DNA of 45,509 bases, taken from contig JAUXSA010000058.1 in assembly GCA_030681615.1 (NCBI GenBank), forward strand, positions 1 to 45,509, written 5' to 3'. The position numbers were made by a program, and so were the translations under genes. Positions 7,831-41,512 of the stretch are shown here, piece after piece. The notes under the pieces were generated by a model. The model made no database searches, was not told the origin of the DNA, and saw only the letters and a list, made by a program, of their open reading frames with translations. The stretch comes from Bacteroidota bacterium (GTDB lineage Bacteria; Bacteroidota; Bacteroidia; B-17B0; Aurantibacillaceae). How positions within the stretch are numbered: position 1 is the first letter of the stretch; every line of letters starts with the position of its first letter.

Positions 7831-8379
7831 TCAGGTTTTTTTAATCGGCAATTTATAACCAATTTTTTTCCTGATTTTTGGCGCGTTTTTCTTTTCTAAT
7901 AACTCATCTAAATATTGAAAAACCACTTCCATATTTTTTCCATGGTTATCTAATTTCTTTTTTATCTTCTCAATTTCCAAACGCAACTCGGTATTATCAA
8001 CCAACATTTGCCTGATCTTTGTAAAGATCCTTATTATTTGAATATTTACGGCTATTGCTTTTTTACTGTTTAATACGCTGGAGAGCATGGCTACTCCTTG
8101 TTCGGTAAAAGCATATGGTGCATACCGTAAGCCCATTTTATCAGAGGAATTGGAGGTGCCAATTTGGCGCCTCCAATTTTCAAATTCCTCTTTATTTAAT
8201 TCAAACATAAAATCCTCAGGAAACCTATCCGTATTTCTAAGAACCTGTCTTTTTAATTGCTTTGTTTCTACTCCATAAAGCTCCGCCAAATCCCTATCCA
8301 ACATTACTTTCTGACCCCGGATAAAATAGATCTTATTCATCACAATTTCATCGGGCACAGTTAATTCATTCTTTTTCAT
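7831..8379 (-). CDS. ORF6N-domain DNA-binding protein
   Basis: 182 residues. The N-terminal 100 residues are a typical ORF6N domain: IYFIRGQKVMLDRDLAELYG, then ETKQLKRQVLRN, RFPEDFMFELNKEEF, and RYAPYAFTEQGVAMLSSVLN. The C-terminal third is a coiled coil (LRLEIEKIKKKLDNHGKNM) ending in a basic tail. ORF6N proteins are known from phages and mobile regions and are common as single genes in Bacteroidota chromosomes, where they are thought to bind DNA. No phage genes lie nearby. The true target is unknown. Confidence 0.92.
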   Translation of the reverse strand: MKKNELTVPDEIVMNKIYFIRGQKVMLDRDLAELYGVETKQLKRQVLRNTDRFPEDFMFELNKEEFENWRRQIGTSNSSDKMGLRYAPYAFTEQGVAMLSSVLNSKKAIAVNIQIIRIFTKIRQMLVDNTELRLEIEKIKKKLDNHGKNMEVVFQYLDELLEKKNAPKIRKKIGYKLPIKKT

Positions 8380-8430
8380 GAGAATGAAATTAAAAGAAAA
8401 AATAAGAGGTGATTGCTACAGATCGTAGAA

Positions 8431-9018
8431 TTATTTTACCCTCACAACCTTTTGCAGTGGAGAAGTCATGCCTCGCATCAAGGTAAAACATTCGTAACTA
8501 TTTTCATCCGCAGAAACAATTTTTACTTTCATAACCTTGCCATCACGGCTTAATTCATATTCACAATCAGAAAGCCACTTTACATTAAACTCCGTTCGCT
8601 CTCCTGTTTTTAAATTGGTTTGAAATTGCACATCGCCTTTGCGCTCTATTTTTAAATATAACACTTTAAAATTACCATCTTTTATAGATGCACAGCTAAT
8701 GCCATCTTTAGCTTTTATAGAATGATAGTGCGGACCGGTTGCGCAAAAGAACACTAAATACAATACAGAAATAACAGTAATACCTAATGGAAAAAAATAA
8801 CCGTAACGTTGCCAGTAACTTTTATTTTTAAGTGGAATTACTGCCAGCAAAAAAGAAACCAGCACCGCAAAAAGTATAATGGCTAAAAAATTGCTAAGGA
8901 AATCAACAGCAAACATAAACCAATCCGACAGATCAAAAGGTTTTACATTAAAATGGTAAAAACATAAAAAACCACTTAAAGAAATTACAGCAAAAAGCCA
9001 AAGTAGTTTTCTGGACAT
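8431..9018 (-). CDS. Small integral membrane protein
   Basis: 195 residues from the ATG at 9018; a TTG at 9060 would add 14 residues but gives no better N-terminus. Three hydrophobic helices lie at about residues 5-22, 33-58 (LSNFLAIILFAVLVSFLLAV) and 72-92 (GITVISVLYLVFF). The remaining 100 residues are a soluble strand-rich domain with KVLYLKIERKGDVQFQTN and a C-terminus near VVRVK. I recognise no family. It follows TPR copy 3 on the same strand (43 bp from the ATG; the TTG form would abut), so it may be co-transcribed and part of the same process. Confidence 0.75.
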   Translation of the reverse strand: MSRKLLWLFAVISLSGFLCFYHFNVKPFDLSDWFMFAVDFLSNFLAIILFAVLVSFLLAVIPLKNKSYWQRYGYFFPLGITVISVLYLVFFCATGPHYHSIKAKDGISCASIKDGNFKVLYLKIERKGDVQFQTNLKTGERTEFNVKWLSDCEYELSRDGKVMKVKIVSADENSYECFTLMRGMTSPLQKVVRVK

Positions 9019-10530: not shown

Positions 10531-10588
10531 GGCAAGGGGTGGCGCGAAGCGACGGAGATTTTGCGCTAGCAAAATGGGGTTCACGGAA
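10531..10588. repeat. Partial palindromic repeat arm (R1)
   Basis: This stretch shares with the right end of the 11101-11283 element the series GGTGGCGC, AGCGACGGAG, TTTTGC-N4-GCAAAATGG and TTCAC, each at near-equal spacing. The central 60-bp block and the left arm are absent. It lies between TPR copy 3 and the 10597-10788 gene. Confidence 0.7.
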
Positions 10589-10596
10589 TTATATTG

Positions 10597-11100: not shown

Positions 11101-11283
11101 TCCCTCTCCCGCCCTCAGCAACGCTACGTCTCGCTCAAAAGTCTAAAAGACTTTTGCCACCCTCTCCAGAGAGGGACACTTTATGTCTATTGTTTGGTGT
11201 GCTTACGCGTAAGCAAACAAAGTATCCTCCTCTACGAGGAGGTGGCGCTTTAGCGACGGAGGAGGTTTTGCCAGAGCAAAATG
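11101..11283. repeat. Palindromic repeat element R2 (3' side of DUF559 gene)
   Basis: Left arm 11101-11176 (ccctctccc ... gagaggga) with an inner hairpin (11136-11143 against 11149-11156). The centre contains the perfect palindrome GCTTACGCGTAAGC. The right arm has hairpins CCTCCTC-tac-GAGGAGG and TTTTGC-caga-GCAAAA. The two arms are imperfect reverse complements of each other. Positions 11206-11265 are identical, base for base, to 11851-11910 in element R3. Confidence 0.88.
11206..11265 (+). repeat. 60-bp direct repeat, copy A
   Basis: Identical over 60 bases to 11851-11910, same orientation. It starts CGCGTAAGCAAAC and ends CGACGGAGGAGG. Together the two copies bracket the DUF559 gene. Confidence 0.92.
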
Positions 11284-11295
11284 GAATTCACAAAA

Positions 11296-11682
11296 CTATT
11301 TGCTTTCCAGATCTTTTATTATAGCGAAAATTTTATTTTTCACACAATCAATTTCTTTTAATACTTCTTCGTCTTTAAATCGTATAATTTTAAATCCTGC
11401 ATTTTCTAATTCTGTTTGGCGAATTTTATCATTAACAATTACTTCTTCTAATAAATGTGTGTAACCGTCTACTTCAATAATTAATTTTAAAGGTGTGCAC
11501 ATGAAATCTGCAATGTAATTTAATGCTGGCCGTTGACGTTTAAACACAAAGCCGGTTTGCTTGGAACGCAAAATATACTTCCACAAACAGGCTTCTGCTT
11601 TTGTCATTTGTTTTCTGTTCTGACCTGCGAATGTTTTTAAATGAGTATTGTATAAATTGCGATTGCCTTTTGTTGCTTGCAT
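11296..11682 (-). CDS. DUF559 (Vsr-like) endonuclease-fold protein
   Basis: 128 residues. It shows the DUF559 signature: MTKAEACLWKYILRSKQ (E30, W34), FKRQRPALNYIADFM (D59), KLIIEVDGYTH (E70, D72, H76), and the closing KIIRFKDEEVL. DUF559 belongs to the restriction-endonuclease-like superfamily near the very-short-patch-repair nuclease Vsr; D59 and E70/D72 are the expected metal-binding residues. The biological role of solitary DUF559 genes is not established. This copy is striking in being flanked by palindromic elements R2 and R3 with identical 60-bp direct repeats, which suggests a small repeat-nuclease unit. No cytosine methylase is nearby, so a Dcm-linked Vsr repair role is unlikely. Confidence 0.92.
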   Translation of the reverse strand: MQATKGNRNLYNTHLKTFAGQNRKQMTKAEACLWKYILRSKQTGFVFKRQRPALNYIADFMCTPLKLIIEVDGYTHLLEEVIVNDKIRQTELENAGFKIIRFKDEEVLKEIDCVKNKIFAIIKDLESK

Positions 11683-11760
11683 AATTAAACGAAAATAAAA
11701 GAAAAAATTAACCTTGATGGCTATGGATTATAGTATTACGAACTTTTGTTAAGTGCAAAG

Positions 11761-11910
11761 CCTCCTCCGCCCTCCGGGCACCTCCTCAAAGAGGAGGACA
11801 CTGCACGCCTATGTATTGTTTGCTTAAGCGTAAAAAAATGATGTGCTTTCCGCGTAAGCAAACAAAGTATCCTCCTCTACGAGGAGGTGGCGCTTTAGCG
11901 ACGGAGGAGG
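11761..11910. repeat. Palindromic repeat element R3 (5' side of DUF559 gene)
   Basis: Left arm cctcctccg ... cacctcctcaaagaggagg (11761-11797), a centre in which gtttgcttaagcg faces cgcgtaagcaaac (inverted, one mismatch), and a right arm shared with R2. The element has the same arm-centre-arm plan as R2. It lies downstream of the 11978-12814 gene and about 80 bp before the start of the DUF559 gene. Confidence 0.88.
11851..11910 (+). repeat. 60-bp direct repeat, copy B
   Basis: Base-for-base identical to 11206-11265. The 585 bases between the two copies hold the complete DUF559 gene, so recombination between them would remove it and leave one copy. Confidence 0.92.
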
Positions 11911-11977
11911 ATTTTACGAAACCTTGTTTTATGCACGGATTACAAATTCGCGTTAACTGGGGAATTTTATTTTGAAA

Positions 11978-34652: not shown

Positions 34653-36791
34653 ATGAAAAAACAATTACTACTTGGTTCGGCCTTATTAGCAGCAATAAGT
34701 GTCTATCCACAACTCAAGCAAAGGCCCGTTAGTGTTGGAAACATTTCCAGCCAAATTGCGGCTAAATTTGCAATGGAGCCAGCTAATGCTGTAACAACTT
34801 TAAAGCAAGTTACTGGTCCGGAACTAAACCCAGCTGAGTCAGAAAAATCAGCAAGTTTACCTCCATCTACTATTAACTGGAATTTATTGACCGGTTCAAT
34901 GAATATTTATGGTATGTTGTTAAGTGAATCACAACCATTACAATATAACGATAATGTAAACGCCATTTCATATATCCACAGAAAAAGTGCTACTTATACG
35001 CCAAACCCTGCAGTGCCTGCATCTGCAGCAGCGGGTGTTATCGTAGGTATGGTAAGTACTAACTGGGGTGCAACCTTTGATAGTACATGTATCTGGTCAA
35101 ATACAGTTGATTGGGGCCGTTACCCACATGGAGGTATCTACAGCCCGGCAGGAAATACTAATATTGCTAACGCATACATCGTTGGTGTAGGTCCAACTGT
35201 AGCAGGTTCAACTTTTTCTGGAAATTTTTACGCCAGCAAACAATTAAACGTGTTTGATAATGTTGCAAGTGCTGCTCCAAATGCACAACAATTCTTCCCG
35301 TTTGCTCAAACAGGATCGGTTACAAATCACGGTTGGTCTCGTTGTTCTTTTGTATCAACGGATGACGGTATAGTTCGTTCAGCTGGATTACTTCAGGCAG
35401 ATAATACAACTCTTGCAGCTTTAAGAGGTTATGCAATTGCTAAAGGTGTTTTCACAGGTGGCACGTTTACCTGGTCTACTGATACTATTATTCCACCGGC
35501 TGCCATCGAGCCAGCAACTAATGATAAAGTTTTAGGCTTTGCTCCGCAAATGGCCTGGAACGAATCAGGAACTGTTGGTTATTTTGTTACAATCGGTTCT
35601 CTGGCTACTGCAGTTAACTCAAACATTGGTCAACATCCAATTATTTATAAAACTACAAATAGTGGTACAAGCTGGTCATTATTATCAGGAATTGATTTCA
35701 ACAGCGTTGCTATGAAGCCAATTTTAGATCATTTAGCGCCAACAAACGCTGATACACTTGTTGCTTCTCCTTTCTTCTCTGATTGGGATATTACAGTTGA
35801 TGCTGATAACAAATTACACTTAGGTGCAGTTATGTTTAGTCATTCTTCTATTCACCTTGACTCATTAAATTTCTTACAACAATGGTCAAATGGCGGCGAA
35901 CTTTACCGTTGGGGTCATACTCCTGGTAACCGTCCGTATTTATATGATTTTATTGGTGATGGAACAGGTCCATGGAGTTTTGTAACTGTAGATTCTATTT
36001 CTTCTGAACAAGCTGGTGCTTCATCTGGAGATCCGGGTTTCAACGAAAATCCATGGGATCCAACAGGAACTGGTGGTTCTAAAACAAATAACGTTGATCA
36101 CCGTATTCAATTAGGCCGTACGCCTGATGGACAATACCTTACTTTTGCATGGGTAGAATCTGACACTAACTTTACAAATGGTGGAAGAAAATACAATTCT
36201 ATTCCAAACATTAAAACACGTTGTATGGCTATTGGTTCTGGAACAAATATGTACCAGGTATCGCCAACTGAACTTAACGTAACTAAGGTTGCTGCAGGAA
36301 CAGGAACAGCAAATACAAACGTTGCTAATCGTGCTACCATGAGTTATATGTCACCAACTACCGGTTCTGCTGCAGTGTCTGGTAATACAGTAGATATTCA
36401 TACGCCATTAGTAATTACTAACAGTAATCCATTCTCTCAATTAACTAACAATACTACCTGGTATCAAAACGGTAAATTATCGTATGTATTCTCATCAATA
36501 ACTACCACGGTTAATGGTGTTGCTGAGAATTCTAACAGTGCAAGCAACTCGGTTATTTATCCTAACCCTGCTTCTAACAATGCTGTTTTAGCAATTGATC
36601 TGAAAGATAATTCAACAGTTGATGTGGTTGTTTTAAATACGATCGGACAAGTTGTAAAAACTAACAGAACTCAAGGACAAGTTGGTGCTAATGGCATTAA
36701 TATTGATCTTACAGGTTTATCAACCGGTATTTACATGGTAAATGTTAAAGTTGGTAATGCTACAAGCACTAAAAAATTAGTGGTACAATAA
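34653..36791 (+). CDS. T9SS-secreted protein of unknown function, paralogue 1 of 3
   Basis: 712 residues. The signal peptide MKKQLLLGSALLAAISVYPQ is nearly identical to those of the other two copies. The body (about 60-620) has propeller-like cues such as TTNSGTSWSLLSGIDFN, FSDWDITVDADNKLHL, YRWGHTPGNRPYLYDFIGDG and WVESDTNFTNGGRKYNSIPN, but matches no family I can name. Residues about 635-712 are a T9SS type A sorting domain (VIYPNPASNNAVLAIDLKDN to STKKLVVQ). The gene is closest to paralogue 3. A strong terminator follows, so it is a single-gene transcript. Codon use suggests high expression. A surface adhesin, shed protein or enzyme are all possible. Confidence 0.93.
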   Translation: MKKQLLLGSALLAAISVYPQLKQRPVSVGNISSQIAAKFAMEPANAVTTLKQVTGPELNPAESEKSASLPPSTINWNLLTGSMNIYGMLLSESQPLQYNDNVNAISYIHRKSATYTPNPAVPASAAAGVIVGMVSTNWGATFDSTCIWSNTVDWGRYPHGGIYSPAGNTNIANAYIVGVGPTVAGSTFSGNFYASKQLNVFDNVASAAPNAQQFFPFAQTGSVTNHGWSRCSFVSTDDGIVRSAGLLQADNTTLAALRGYAIAKGVFTGGTFTWSTDTIIPPAAIEPATNDKVLGFAPQMAWNESGTVGYFVTIGSLATAVNSNIGQHPIIYKTTNSGTSWSLLSGIDFNSVAMKPILDHLAPTNADTLVASPFFSDWDITVDADNKLHLGAVMFSHSSIHLDSLNFLQQWSNGGELYRWGHTPGNRPYLYDFIGDGTGPWSFVTVDSISSEQAGASSGDPGFNENPWDPTGTGGSKTNNVDHRIQLGRTPDGQYLTFAWVESDTNFTNGGRKYNSIPNIKTRCMAIGSGTNMYQVSPTELNVTKVAAGTGTANTNVANRATMSYMSPTTGSAAVSGNTVDIHTPLVITNSNPFSQLTNNTTWYQNGKLSYVFSSITTTVNGVAENSNSASNSVIYPNPASNNAVLAIDLKDNSTVDVVVLNTIGQVVKTNRTQGQVGANGINIDLTGLSTGIYMVNVKVGNATSTKKLVVQ

Positions 36792-36817
36792 TTTAATTTT
36801 TTCCGGTATCGGAAATT

Positions 36818-36852
36818 AAAAACCCGCGCTATTAATAGCGCGGGTTTTTTTA
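36818..36852 (+). terminator. Rho-independent terminator after paralogue 1
   Basis: AACCCGCGCTAT-TA-ATAGCGCGGGTT, a perfect palindromic stem flanked by A- and T-runs, 26 bp after the stop. Confidence 0.93.
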
Positions 36853-37028
36853 TTGACCAAAGCTATTTGGTTTTATAAGATTTATTTTATACCTTAGCTA
36901 AGTAATCTCCAATTACACAAAAACCCTATTTTTTCTTGCTCAAATTTTATTGAATTAATTCATTTTAATTTAATAAATTGCTTATTGAAAAAAACGAGTT
37001 AAATTTTAAAACATATAAATCAAATACC

Positions 37029-39140
37029 ATGAAAAAACAATTACTACTCGGTTCAGCATTATTAGCAGTAATAAGTGCTTTCCCACAAAATGGCAAAATA
37101 AAGCCAAACCCCTCTGGTATACAAAATACCCAATTAATCGCCAAACTTAAATTTGCTGAAGAATCAGCAAGTTCCCGTAGCGCGATCCCTCAGGTTACTG
37201 AAGCGCCAATTGAATTAAATGGTGCTTCAAAAACAAGCGCTATTAATACCTGGGCTAAGATATCGGGATCTGGTAATATTTTAAACTCTACCATTTCTTT
37301 TGGTAATCCATTACAGTACAACGATGAATTAAATACTGTTACATTCATTCACCGTATGAACAAAACGTATCCCGTAACACCCACACCCGTTAGTACAGCA
37401 ACCAGTGGTGTTATCGTTGGTATGATCACAACAAATTGGGGTACAACATGGGATAGTACCGTGCTTTGGTCAAATAACAGCGAGTGGGGGCGTTACCCGC
37501 AAGGTGGTGTTTATAATCCGCCGGGAAACACCAATGTTAGCAACGCTTACATTCTTGCGCAAGGCCCTACTACAGGGGCAGCCACAGGTTGGTTAGGTAA
37601 TTATTATGCCAGCAGACAAATGGGTTCTGCCAATTATAGCAATACCATTACAACAGTTCCTGGTGAGATGCAATGGATGTCAAAAAACGGACCATTTCCT
37701 CCGAACTTAAACAGACATGATTTTGCTGCGTATTGTTTTACTTCTACAGATGATGGAAAAGTAAGAACAATTGGCGGGATCACTGATGAGTCTGTTGCCG
37801 GTGATAGCGCTGTAATGCTTGTTACAGGAAGTTTTAATGCAGGTACATTTTCATGGGTAGGAACTCAATTTAATCCTCCATCAGTTATAAATTCTAACAC
37901 CTTAGATGACGAGTGGTTATCGCGACCAATGACCGCCTGGAATGAAAGCGGCACAACGGGATACGTTATGGTGATTGGAGCAAGAGCCGGCGCTACCGGT
38001 TCAAACAAAGGATACCAACCTATCGTTTATAAAACCACAAACTCTGGTACATCATGGAGCTTGTTACCGGGTATTGATTTTAACAGCGGTGCATTTAATC
38101 ATGTTTTAGCACCCCTTGATTCTGCAGACAGCTTTGGCGTAAAAACCAAAGTAATTCCATTTTTTAACTGGATAGAAGGTATAGATATTGCTGTTGATGC
38201 TAATAACAAATTACATATTTTTACTTCTATTATTCCAAGTTCTATCGATCACCCTGATTCGCTTGCTTATGTTGGCGCGTATTCGATCCAGGGAGAGCTT
38301 TACAGATGGCCTCATGTTCCTTCTCAACGCCCGTATTTATATGATTTTACCGGCGACGGTACAGCTGCATGGAACTGCATAACTGTAGATTCAATGTCAA
38401 GCGAAGGCCCTGCAGGTCTTTCAACAGGTAATGGTTTTGCAGATAACCCTTGGGACACTGACGCAAGTGGAAATAAATGTAGAGTAGATGCACGTTTACA
38501 ATTAAGCCGCACACCAGATGGACAGTACCTTGTTTATACCTGGGGCGAATCTGATTCTAACTTTACGAATGGTGGAAAAAAATGGAATAATATTCCAAAC
38601 GTAAAAGCACGCTGTTATTCAGTTTTAGGTAATTCAGTACATCCGGTAGAGATCAATGTTACAAAACCGGCAATAGGAGCTAATCCAAACGTTTCAAACC
38701 GTGCTATGTATCATTTTGCTTCACCAACTACGGGTACGGCAATTTCAACTCCTGGAGGGCCAAGAATGACCATGCCAATTACTGTTACTAATGGTAACCC
38801 CTATACACAAACAGCACCGCAACACTGGTACATGTCTGCCGATCTTAATTTTGGATCTGTTGGAGTTGCAGAAAATGCATTAGCAAGTGCAAATAATAGT
38901 ATTGTTTATCCAAACCCTGCTTCTGATAATGCGGTTTTAGCAATTGATCTTAAAGATAATTCTAATGTTGATATTACTGTTTTAAATACAATAGGCCAGG
39001 TTGTAAAAACTAAAAAAGCACAAGGTCAGGTTGGAGAAAATACAATTAATATTGATCTGACTGGATTAGCAACAGGTATTTACATGGTAAATATTAAAGT
39101 TGGAAATGCAAACAGTACAAAAAAATTAGTAGTTCAATAA
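37029..39140 (+). CDS. T9SS-secreted protein of unknown function, paralogue 2 of 3
   Basis: 703 residues from the ATG at 37029; a TTG 51 bases upstream is in frame but gives a poor N-terminus, while the ATG gives MKKQLLLGSALLAVISAFPQ. It is the most divergent of the three: the middle has its own insert with EMQWMSKNGPFPPNLNRHDF, but retains TSTDDGKVRTIGG, TTNSGTSWSLLPGIDFNSG, YRWPHVPSQRPYLYDFTGDG and ESDSNFTNGGKKWNNIPN. The C-terminal T9SS domain is almost the same as in the other copies. Function is unknown; it is clearly derived from the same tandem duplication. Confidence 0.93.
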   Translation: MKKQLLLGSALLAVISAFPQNGKIKPNPSGIQNTQLIAKLKFAEESASSRSAIPQVTEAPIELNGASKTSAINTWAKISGSGNILNSTISFGNPLQYNDELNTVTFIHRMNKTYPVTPTPVSTATSGVIVGMITTNWGTTWDSTVLWSNNSEWGRYPQGGVYNPPGNTNVSNAYILAQGPTTGAATGWLGNYYASRQMGSANYSNTITTVPGEMQWMSKNGPFPPNLNRHDFAAYCFTSTDDGKVRTIGGITDESVAGDSAVMLVTGSFNAGTFSWVGTQFNPPSVINSNTLDDEWLSRPMTAWNESGTTGYVMVIGARAGATGSNKGYQPIVYKTTNSGTSWSLLPGIDFNSGAFNHVLAPLDSADSFGVKTKVIPFFNWIEGIDIAVDANNKLHIFTSIIPSSIDHPDSLAYVGAYSIQGELYRWPHVPSQRPYLYDFTGDGTAAWNCITVDSMSSEGPAGLSTGNGFADNPWDTDASGNKCRVDARLQLSRTPDGQYLVYTWGESDSNFTNGGKKWNNIPNVKARCYSVLGNSVHPVEINVTKPAIGANPNVSNRAMYHFASPTTGTAISTPGGPRMTMPITVTNGNPYTQTAPQHWYMSADLNFGSVGVAENALASANNSIVYPNPASDNAVLAIDLKDNSNVDITVLNTIGQVVKTKKAQGQVGENTINIDLTGLATGIYMVNIKVGNANSTKKLVVQ

Positions 39141-39173
39141 TCCTAAAGGTTGCCTTTGATATAAATAAATTTC

Positions 39174-39210
39174 TAAAAAGCCATGTTGTTTATACAACAT
39201 GGCTTTTTTA
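39174..39210 (+). terminator. Rho-independent terminator after paralogue 2
   Basis: AAAAGCCATGTTGT-TTAT-ACAACATGGCTTTT, a 14-bp perfect stem with a tetraloop and a T-run, 33 bp after the stop. Confidence 0.93.
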
Positions 39211-39367
39211 TACGATCTATTTCTGTTAAAACATTAATTAGTTCGGTTATATAAATTTTATTTTATATATTAGTTAAATATCTCCAAAACAAAATCTTAG
39301 TTTTAATGTTCTTAGAAAAGAGTACAATTAATTTAAATACATAATTAATACCTAAAACCAAATAAAC

Positions 39368-41512
39368 ATGAAAAAACAATTATTACTTGGTTCGGCCTTA
39401 TTAGCAGCAATAAGCGTCTTTCCACAAAACGGGCATATTAAACAAAGGCCTGTGGGCATAGAAAATATTGCCGGAAGAATAGCTGCAAAATTTGCTATTG
39501 AACCTACTAACGGAGGTTTTCAGGGTTTAAAACAAGCGCCCGGACCAATTTTAAATCCAGCGTCAGAGCCTGAACAATATTCATCCGCGGCTTTACCACC
39601 GTCTACTATAGGTTGGAAATTGCTAACCGGCTCAATGAACATTTATGGCATGTTAGTTAGCCAATCAAAACCATTACAATACAATGATAATATAAACGCA
39701 GTTTCTTTTATACATAGAAAAAGTTTGAGCTATACAGCGCTTCCAGCCCTTCCGCCAAACGCGCAAGGTGGAGCGATCGTAGCCATGATCAGTTCTAACG
39801 GTGGTGCAACTTTTGACAGCACTTGTATTTGGGCTGATGCTAATAACTGGGGACGTTACCCGCAAGGTGGAATTTATAACCCGGTTGGAAATACAAATAT
39901 CGCCAATGCATACGTTGTAGGTACCGGCCCAACAGTTGCAGGATCTTTATTTTCTGGTAATTTTTATGCCAGTAAACAATTGAACGTGTTTAATAATACG
40001 GCCAGTGGTGCTCCAAATGCACAACAATTCTTCAATTTCACTTCTACACCAAGTGTTGCTAATCACGGTTGGTCACGTTTTGGTTTTAGCTCTACGGATG
40101 ATGGCGTTGTGCGTTCATTAGCGTTACTTCAGGCTGATAATACCACTCTTGCCGCTTTAAGGGGTTACGCCATTGTAAAGGGTGTTTTTAATGCGGGAAC
40201 ATTCACCTGGTCTACGGATAGTATTATTCCACCGGCTCTTGTTGAACCAACTTCAGGTGATAAAGTTTTAAGTTTTGCGCCGCAAATGGCCTGGAACGAA
40301 TCGGGAACTGTGGGTTATGTTGTTGCATTAGGATGTTTAGGTACGGCTGTAAATTCAAATATTGGTCAGCACCCTATCATTTACAAAACAACTAACTCTG
40401 GCGTAAGCTGGTCTTTATTACCTGTTATTGACTTTAACAGCCCTGCTATGACTCCCATTCTGGATCATATAGCTTCAACAAATGCTAACACAACAATTAC
40501 TTCTCCATTTTTTAGCGATTTTGATATTACCGTTGACGGTAATAACCGTTTGCATATTGCCGCAACTATGTTCAGTCATGCTTCTATCCATGCTGACTCA
40601 TTAAACTATTTGCAACAATGGTCAAATGGTGGCGAACTTTACCGTTGGGGCCACACACCTGGTAACCGTCCATATTTATATGATTTTATTGGTGATGGTA
40701 CTTCTGCATGGACCTATCAAACTATTGACTCTTTATCTTCTGAAGAAGCAAGTCCGCAAACAGGTGGAAATGGTTTTAACGAAAATCCATGGGACGCTAC
40801 AGGAACAGCACCTGCTGTTAAAACAGATAATGTAGATTCACGTATCCAGTTAGGTCGTACACCAAACGGGCAATACATTACTTTTACATGGGCAGAATCT
40901 GATACTAATTTCACAAACGGTGGCAGAAAATATAACTCAATACCAAACATTAAATCACGTTGTATGTATGCTGCACCATTTGGTTTCCAGATCTCCCCAA
41001 CAGAACTTAATGTAAGTAAAGTTGCTGTAGGAACAGGTACAGCCAATACAAATGTGGCCAACCGCGCTACCTTACATTACACCTCACCAAAAACGGGTGT
41101 GGAAGCTGTTATAGGAAGTACCGTAGATATTGTTACACCGATTACGGTTACCAACAGTAATCCATTTGCGCAATTAACCAATAATACAACCTGGTATCAA
41201 TTTGGTAAACTATCGTATGCTTTCCCTACAATTGGTTTATCACAAGCGTCACAAAGTAGTTTAGGTAATATTGAGATCTATCCTAACCCTGCTTCTGGTG
41301 AGGCTGTATTGGCAATTAATTTAGAAGATAATTCAAGCGTTGAGGTTACTGTTTTAAATACAATAGGACAAGTTGTTAAAACTAACAAAGCTCAAGGGCA
41401 AGTTGGAGAAAACACTATTTCAATTGATCTTAGTGGATTATCAACCGGTATTTACATGGTAAATATTAAAGTTGGAAATGCATCGAGTACTAAAAAATTA
41501 GTAGTTCAATAA
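39368..41512 (+). CDS. T9SS-secreted protein of unknown function, paralogue 3 of 3
   Basis: 714 residues. The signal peptide MKKQLLLGSALLAAISVFPQ is identical to paralogue 1 apart from one residue. The body follows paralogue 1 closely (LPPSTIGWKLLTGSMNIYGM, GNFYASKQLNVFNNTASGAP, YRWGHTPGNRPYLYDFIGDG, ESDTNFTNGGRKYNSIPNIK). The T9SS type A domain is about 635-714 (EIYPNPASGEAVLAINLEDN to SSTKKLVVQ). Leader DNA just before the ATG shares the run cctaaaaccaaata with paralogue 1. A terminator follows. Function unknown. Confidence 0.93.
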   Translation: MKKQLLLGSALLAAISVFPQNGHIKQRPVGIENIAGRIAAKFAIEPTNGGFQGLKQAPGPILNPASEPEQYSSAALPPSTIGWKLLTGSMNIYGMLVSQSKPLQYNDNINAVSFIHRKSLSYTALPALPPNAQGGAIVAMISSNGGATFDSTCIWADANNWGRYPQGGIYNPVGNTNIANAYVVGTGPTVAGSLFSGNFYASKQLNVFNNTASGAPNAQQFFNFTSTPSVANHGWSRFGFSSTDDGVVRSLALLQADNTTLAALRGYAIVKGVFNAGTFTWSTDSIIPPALVEPTSGDKVLSFAPQMAWNESGTVGYVVALGCLGTAVNSNIGQHPIIYKTTNSGVSWSLLPVIDFNSPAMTPILDHIASTNANTTITSPFFSDFDITVDGNNRLHIAATMFSHASIHADSLNYLQQWSNGGELYRWGHTPGNRPYLYDFIGDGTSAWTYQTIDSLSSEEASPQTGGNGFNENPWDATGTAPAVKTDNVDSRIQLGRTPNGQYITFTWAESDTNFTNGGRKYNSIPNIKSRCMYAAPFGFQISPTELNVSKVAVGTGTANTNVANRATLHYTSPKTGVEAVIGSTVDIVTPITVTNSNPFAQLTNNTTWYQFGKLSYAFPTIGLSQASQSSLGNIEIYPNPASGEAVLAINLEDNSSVEVTVLNTIGQVVKTNKAQGQVGENTISIDLSGLSTGIYMVNIKVGNASSTKKLVVQ

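Follow-up and report, generated by a model that had tools for sequence, protein, structure and literature searches.

A gene for a small DUF559 nuclease and the palindromes that border it, found in a Bacteroidota contig, form what we take, with somewhat better than even confidence, to be one two-part element resembling REP elements, whose nuclease would act on its own palindromes. The support from sequence lies in the association of DUF559 genes with palindromes, the inverted layout of these palindromes, the covariation of nuclease and palindrome, the presence and absence of the unit at particular sites, the occurrence of gene-less remnants, and the fold of the nuclease. The window, that is, the whole stretch of 45,509 nucleotides that was analysed, is contig C44 of a genome of 4.28 Mb in 199 contigs.

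Organization of the window locus

The initial annotation had described a DUF559 gene bracketed by 60-bp direct repeats, and this description is exact. Positions 11206-11265 and 11851-11910 are identical at 60 of 60 bases in the same orientation, and between them lies a stand-alone DUF559 (PF04480) nuclease gene of 128 aa (11296-11682, minus strand), recognized as an open reading frame, by its profile match, and by an AlphaFold model. An identity of 60 bases in 45 kb is far beyond chance. The match extends to 11203-11269 and 11848-11914, where it covers 67 nt at 97%. The repeats had also been described as parts of palindromes; both do sit in palindromes, and the picture is refined in that the palindromes adjoining the gene form an inverted pair, one at 11206-11269 on the plus strand and the other at 11761-11806 on the minus strand.

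The palindromes are all built alike. A pyrimidine tract is followed by a loop and the purine tract complementary to it, then in most cases by a small additional hairpin, and then by a second purine tract. Element E1 (11206-11269, plus strand, from the repeat and palindrome search) holds the first copy of the direct repeat. It has the hairpin CCTCCTC-tac-GAGGAGG at 11226-11242 and a second purine tract, GGAGGAGG, at 11258-11265 that faces the gene, and a small second hairpin, TGGCGC..AGCGAC, lies between the two. Its inverted partner E2 (11761-11806, minus strand) is on the promoter side of the gene, and its second purine tract is also gene-facing. Both of these gene-adjoining palindromes are placed tail-to-tail with an outer palindrome. 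On the promoter side the outer palindrome is E3 (11848-11914, plus strand), the second copy of the direct repeat, identical at 60 of 60 bases to 11206-11265. E2 and E3 are joined by a centre palindrome at 11816-11865 (arms 11816-11834 and 11847-11865), and the DNA fold of 11816-11912 has a z of -5.1. On the other side the outer palindrome is the related element E0 (11102-11180, minus strand), of the CCCTCTC-loop-GAGAGGG type, which is joined to E1 by a centre palindrome at 11194-11221 found by inverted-repeat search. A degraded additional copy of the element lies at 10536-10592 on the plus strand (77% over 39 nt, the remainder judged by eye).

The DUF559 protein

The window protein matches PF04480 with an E value of 8.1e-29 (100.1 bits against a cut-off of 20.6). 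Its profile search returned only PF04480 and a sub-threshold match to MTES_1575, and no HUH tyrosine (Y1) transposase. The AlphaFold model, with a pLDDT of 88, superposes on 3hrl (Z 15.1, rmsd 1.0, 93 aligned), on the homing endonuclease I-Bth0305I (3r3p; Z 12.2, rmsd 2.5, 95 aligned), and on Vsr (1cw0; Z 9.7, rmsd 2.3, 100 aligned). Residues invariant in 45 aligned sequences, namely the window protein plus 44 from the 80 named loci, include R23, E30, W34, D59, E70, D72, G73, H76, and D85; by this alignment the acidic and histidine residues among them are candidate catalytic residues. Together, the fold matches of the model and the invariant residues make a nuclease the expected activity of the protein.

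Association of DUF559 genes with palindromes

DUF559 is present in 58 of the 87 genomes of the bacterium's own family. A palindrome was defined strictly as a perfect stem with a C/T run of at least 6, including at least 4 C, no more than 250 bp from the gene. By this definition 51 of the 57 stand-alone DUF559 genes of the family have a palindrome, and 30 of the 57 have one on both sides. Control genes at least 1 kb away at the same loci have one in 12 of 168 cases (Fisher 5e-32, a P value that overstates independence because the genes within each set are related). The scan of named genomes gives 58 of 74 stand-alone DUF559 genes with a palindrome, 36 of them on both sides, against 13 of 240 controls. 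The initial annotation had reckoned with the chance that DUF559 genes are usually without such repeats, and these counts speak to the contrary. Three of the 25 scoring control genes are DUF559 genes themselves. Palindromes as a marker of any small gene were considered and rejected: only 12 of 184 genes of 100-220 aa lying at least 1 kb away have one, and 3 of the 12 are DUF559 genes.

The family set consists of stand-alone genes; fused large proteins, partial or stop-bearing rows, a contig-edge row (G071:C222), and loci L110-L113 are excluded from the counts. There are two DUF559 genes at locus L065, and the genes next to them are counted twice among the controls. Six of the 80 named loci were excluded for an open frame longer than 260 aa, and five of these six are palindrome-positive by an earlier definition. 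The definition of a palindrome was revised after inspection of the data, and the result has the same direction under each version (44 of 57, 51 of 56 loci, 63 of 74, and finally the counts given above). A strict palindrome is missing at 6 of the 57 family genes (L074, L090, L091, L099, L106, L107) and at 16 of the 74 named genes, among them both Planctomycetota records, which match under a looser definition only.

The layout of the palindromes is also regular. At 18 of the 22 loci where both nearest elements could be oriented (L065 left out), they form an inverted pair whose second purine tracts point towards the gene. Positives occur among records titled Cyanobacteria, Chloroflexota, Patescibacteria, Nitrospirae, Zixibacteria, and Calditrichaeota; taxa are taken as titled in the records, many of which are metagenome bins. 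Matched pairs of nuclease and palindrome are found in named strains of Pedobacter, Mucilaginibacter, and Pontibacter, which makes the question of their relationship directly testable.

None of the palindromes in 8 loci matched Rfam at the gathering threshold, the sole hit being a Flavo-1 RNA; PADLOC gave only weak matches; and a literature search, mainly of open-access journals, found no description of a link between DUF559 and palindromes. The Flavo-1 RNA (RF01705, 53.8 bits) is at L078:1999-2081 and adjoins another palindrome copy in genome G016. As a separate observation, palindromes are translated into protein ends at L107, L106, L087, L073, and L118, giving tails such as LPLPPPEGD and heads such as SPLVEGCPQDGVV.

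Covariation of palindrome type and nuclease clade

On a tree of 57 DUF559 proteins, palindrome types follow the clades. The more similar two proteins are, the more similar their palindromes tend to be, with a rho of 0.294 over 1033 pairs from different genera (52 family proteins with elements); shuffling the palindromes within genera yields 0.046 on average, and not one of 2000 shuffles reaches the observed value. For the named set (66 loci with elements, in groups assigned from record titles) rho is 0.32 over 1232 cross-group pairs, and none of 1000 within-group shuffles reaches it. The palindromes of different-clade genes in one genome are no more similar (median score 8, n=24) than those of unrelated genes (8, n=959), whereas those of similar genes in different genera score 13 (n=74). 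These comparisons support, to a moderate degree, the view that palindrome sequence tracks the DUF559 clade rather than the genome, rho being about 0.3 and the rows within each set being related. Covariation of the second purine tract with the first was considered and set aside: the mean longest shared run is 4.92, as compared with 4.46 for partners from other clades, a small effect and one favoured by design, the orientation having been picked by the same run.

Dispersed copies and gene-less forms

The palindromes are not confined to DUF559 loci. A 105-base query of the window element has nine matches in its own genome, of which two are in the window and several are partial, and a pattern search allowing up to 3 mismatches adds three places (C81, C199, and C111:7887). 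The initial annotation had asked whether copies of the repeat core cluster near DUF559 genes. DUF559 genes are usually flanked by palindromes, and core copies are dispersed in the genome; the copies inspected mostly adjoin unrelated genes, as REPs do. The genome has two DUF559 genes, the one in the window and one on contig C50. The C50 gene is flanked by inverted copies of a different palindrome, ATTCCCCCTTTGAAAAAGGGGGTTAGGGGGATT. Gene-less inverted doublets of palindromes are seen by eye at L003 and L004, which are examples rather than a census. The DUF559 gene of G016 is the sister of the window's on the protein tree, and the syntenic site in the window's own genome, on contig C81 (91% over 2541 bp), keeps the leader and the left-hand palindromes, with the gene absent and the match stopping at the inner edge of the palindrome.

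The C50-clade palindrome, AAGGGGGTTAGGGGGATT (18 bases, at most 1 mismatch), occurs in 10 of the 87 genomes: all five that have an intact C50-clade DUF559 gene on the tree, and five close relatives without one. G029, in which the C50-clade gene is decayed, has zero copies. Since relatives without the gene carry copies and G029 has none, the number of copies is not simply dependent on the gene or tied to it. G054, a member of another genus, has just two copies, which lie at the flanks of its DUF559 gene; this pair suggests transfer of the whole unit, unless the contig is mis-binned. Exact copies of a third-clade palindrome occur in 7 genomes of one genus, and the same pattern with 2 mismatches also catches window-like copies in five genomes of the window's own genus. 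Reversed control patterns gave zero hits in the same genome searches.

Proposed mechanism

From the features described above we infer binding, cutting, nuclease-driven copying, and movement. The suggestion in the initial annotation of a nuclease moving or maintaining its palindromes is thereby partly supported, and it is the reading that we favour. The unit would consist of a palindrome, the nuclease gene, and an inverted palindrome, often with a second palindrome placed tail-to-tail outside, and it would be such an outer copy that produces the 60-bp direct repeat in the window. Each DUF559 clade would be paired with its own palindrome type. The inverted pair around a gene would represent the autonomous form; gene-less copies, single or paired, would be non-autonomous derivatives that arise by internal deletion and relate to it as REPs and REPINs do to RAYTs. 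The Vsr-fold nuclease could bind the pyrimidine-purine-purine palindrome either as a duplex or as a single-stranded hairpin and cut or nick at its edge; as the break is repaired, the element would be copied to a site that is new or empty.

Many bacterial genomes are known to contain dispersed palindromes. A broader proposal, to which we give rather less than even weight, is that many bacterial phyla harbour a class of REP-like mobile element whose sole gene encodes a Vsr/EDxHD-fold nuclease, which would recognise and propagate its own clade-specific pyrimidine-purine-purine palindromes independently of HUH transposases. Such an element could account for the movement of many dispersed C/T-G/A palindromes that have so far been without a mover. 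If DUF559 does drive its palindromes, a role would be found for a widespread family of proteins "of unknown function", and a second, unrelated enzyme would be shown to have adopted the REP life style.

Filled and empty sites

Empty sites were among the checks that the initial annotation had proposed, and element-free junctions are indeed found in relatives at two sites, one between amidohydrolase genes and the other between murQ and VF530. The C50 unit lies between two amidohydrolase genes in G000, G011, and G012, and the junction is short and lacks the unit in four near relatives (G005, G016, G015, G034). G026 has a remnant in which both palindromes are kept and the gene is reduced to its five initial codons, in frame with the gene that follows, and G029 has a decayed copy of the unit. 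Loci were obtained for 30 of 40 genomes and the site was located in 28, 24 without a palindrome and 4 with one; the G029 copy comes from a separate comparison. Filled, empty, and remnant states interleave on the tree of the downstream host gene, on which the "empty" label of G010 is provisional. At this site the element also gives the downstream enzyme a new N-terminus, NPPNPLRQGG.

In the 63 nt directly downstream of the unit, filled sites resemble each other at 0.54-0.76 and empty sites at 0.63-0.98, whereas filled and empty sites resemble each other at 0.38-0.46. This clustering by state suggests that the unit and a short adjoining stretch were passed between lineages together, or that alleles were exchanged. 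Precise or simple excision was considered as an origin of the empty junctions here, and the difference between filled and empty sites in these 63 nt argues against it. Farther out, G000 and the empty G005 agree at 0.92 in the nearest 75-base window before the unit and at 0.95 in the nearest one compared after it, and in these outer flanks G000 is more like G005 than like any other filled species. Third codon positions compared between G000 and G011 give 0.762 for DUF559 versus 0.611, an excess at the amidohydrolase site.

The murQ-VF530 junction is filled in four genomes, the gene being broken in G074, and is short and clean in eight. The murQ gene of the empty G080 is 94% identical to that of the filled G069. 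As for the other murQ loci of the 17, that of G071 is cut at the contig end with palindromes before VF530, G081 and G085 have a different upstream gene, and G082 and G075 were unlocated. Third positions between G069 and G072 give 0.696 for DUF559 versus 0.735 for murQ, so that DUF559 is no more alike than its neighbour. Recent transfer, as judged by excess DUF559 similarity, is thus not seen at the murQ site, and there is some at the amidohydrolase site. The unit of G069 has a TAAATA repeat at both ends, the collapse of which would give the G080 junction, a weak indication in AT-rich DNA; imperfect end repeats are seen by eye in G072 and G074. By eye, no clear target-site duplication is seen at either site and none is evident at the amidohydrolase site. 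In G067, a separate site has a palindrome followed by an apparent shortened DUF559 remnant, again as judged by eye.

The main rival to a palindrome-mobilizing element is a free-standing homing endonuclease gene. DUF559 would cut element-free alleles, which would be repaired by copying from filled ones, and the palindromes would be borders, by-products, or recognition sites. We regard this as the less likely of the two accounts, at perhaps one chance in a few; the 63-nt pattern raised its standing and lowered that of the element reading slightly. The fold is that of the EDxHD homing endonuclease I-Bth0305I, and a Thermosynechococcus DUF559 gene is placed in the EDxHD homing family (PMC9403480). 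The interleaving of filled and empty states at one exact site on the host tree is what homing would give, and the 63 nt, which group sites by whether they are filled and not by species, look like a short co-converted tract. Homing or an exchange of alleles would explain the 63-nt pattern no less well than free transposition. However, no tract is seen beyond the 63 nt at this one site, where the flanks of G000 are at 0.92 and 0.95; DUF559 divergence at the murQ site fits descent; and homing alone leaves unexplained the dispersed gene-less palindromes that track the nuclease clade. Homing and element copying may be one process, acting at old versus new sites.

Less probable readings: RAYT passengers, regulation, and repair

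The initial annotation had likened the layout to REP elements moved by a RAYT enzyme, with a Vsr-like nuclease in its place. This likeness stands as regards an enzyme gene flanked by recurring palindromes whose type follows the clade, and does not stand as regards RAYT-type loci and the GTAG tag. In another reading, which is very unlikely, RAYT (Y1_Tnp) transposases would move the palindromes as REPs, with DUF559 as cargo. RAYT-type genes do occur in 57 of the 87 genomes, and the two Y1_Tnp genes of the window's own genome both sit between palindromes, which are of other kinds. Moreover, in G003 (L117, 2400-3250) a RAYT gene with its own palindromes lies downstream of the gene orthologous to HSDR_N_2 of the window, in the place that the DUF559 unit takes up there. 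Yet pure C/T palindromes are found at only 2 of 32 RAYT-type loci (30 taken from Y1_Tnp matches and 2 from the own genome), the palindromes seen at RAYT genes being of other types, and 10 of the 11 DUF559 genes counted in genomes without a Y1_Tnp match, some of which are incomplete, still have palindromes. On these two counts a RAYT-driven REP with DUF559 cargo was rejected as the main reading. As an observation in its own right, the place adjoining HSDR_N_2 is used by two kinds of palindrome-bearing element, a RAYT in G003 and DUF559 in the window.

Regulation is a slightly poorer explanation still and is hardly probable as the whole account. The palindromes would be terminators or translational control hairpins, and the second purine tract would double as a ribosome-binding site. 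A purine tract ends no more than 15 nt from the start codon in 15 of the 57 genes, and a scan for terminator-like structures matches window hairpins (4 found against 1.5 expected, sd 1.1). Regulation does not explain the inverted downstream copies, the dispersed copies beside unrelated genes, or the gene-less remnants, nor does it explain why a palindrome type is limited to lineages with the cognate clade and their relatives. The upstream palindrome may have a regulatory role in addition to its role in the proposed element.

Least probable of all, and indeed most improbable, is a host-side role without mobility, such as mismatch or palindrome repair by a Vsr-like enzyme: Caulobacter VsrA, which contains a DUF559 domain, is described as Vsr-like, and is proposed to act in very-short-patch-type repair, is needed for the response to damage when cells are without the ScmA methyltransferase (PMC12907096), but the patchy presence of DUF559 units, their decay at exact sites, and their gene-less derivatives look like a mobile element and not a conserved repair gene.

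Relation to known systems

The DUF559 unit resembles REPtrons and REPINs with their RAYT in that short palindromes flank a single nuclease gene, gene-less copies are dispersed, inverted doublets occur, and the palindrome family tracks the enzyme (PMC3116915, PMC3733652, PMC6006769). The gene-less inverted doublets at L003 and L004 and the G026 remnant are REPIN-like by eye. It differs in its protein, which is of the PD-(D/E)XK/Vsr fold, whereas the REPtron enzyme is an HUH tyrosine transposase; in its pure pyrimidine/purine stems and second purine tract; and in its presence in genomes without a RAYT match. By a simple text check within 8-12 nt, 14 of 121 elements have a GTAG close by and 3 have a CGTC. 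With an unrelated enzyme and with most elements lacking the GTAG tag, the DUF559 unit is not a REPtron, although it would work like one.

With I-Bth0305I (PMC3943268; 3r3p) the unit shares the fold of the catalytic domain, the variable occupancy of an exact site, and a short filled-state stretch. In contrast, DUF559 loci are without a visible intron or intein host and have palindromic borders and dispersed gene-less palindromes, and DUF559 proteins are mostly 115-160 aa, without a long DNA-binding extension. The likeness to Vsr (1cw0, 1vsr) and to Caulobacter VsrA is one of fold, VsrA having the DUF559 domain; palindromic borders and mobility, however, are not part of the VsrA account in the available part of that source (PMC12907096). 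Like MITEs, the unit has inverted repeats on both sides of a single gene and, in G026, a derivative with an internal deletion, but it is without a transposase of a known family and without a clear target duplication. There is a fair chance that the DUF559 unit is a separate class of element.

Other features of the window

The DUF559 gene has a leader (11688-11738, minus strand) with a small hairpin, CTATAATCCATAG, at 11721-11733. A leader at 8383-8433 that is 75% like it precedes an ORF6N gene (7831-8379, minus strand), and the two have in common a small covarying hairpin, CTACGATCTGTAG in the ORF6N leader and CTATAATCCATAG in that of DUF559. Similar leaders of the form GCTAY-N5-RTAGCAAGG precede several DUF559 genes and the RAYT gene in L117, some of them lying about 25 nt before a TAnnTTTG-like box as judged by eye. 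The leader hairpin GCTAY-N5-RTAGC was rejected as a DUF559-specific part because it is also present before ORF6N and the L117 RAYT; perhaps it is an operator common to mobile small genes. Elsewhere in the window, at 34653-41512, three consecutive ORFs of 712-720 aa, whose DNA repeats are about 60-83% identical, form a tandem gene family.
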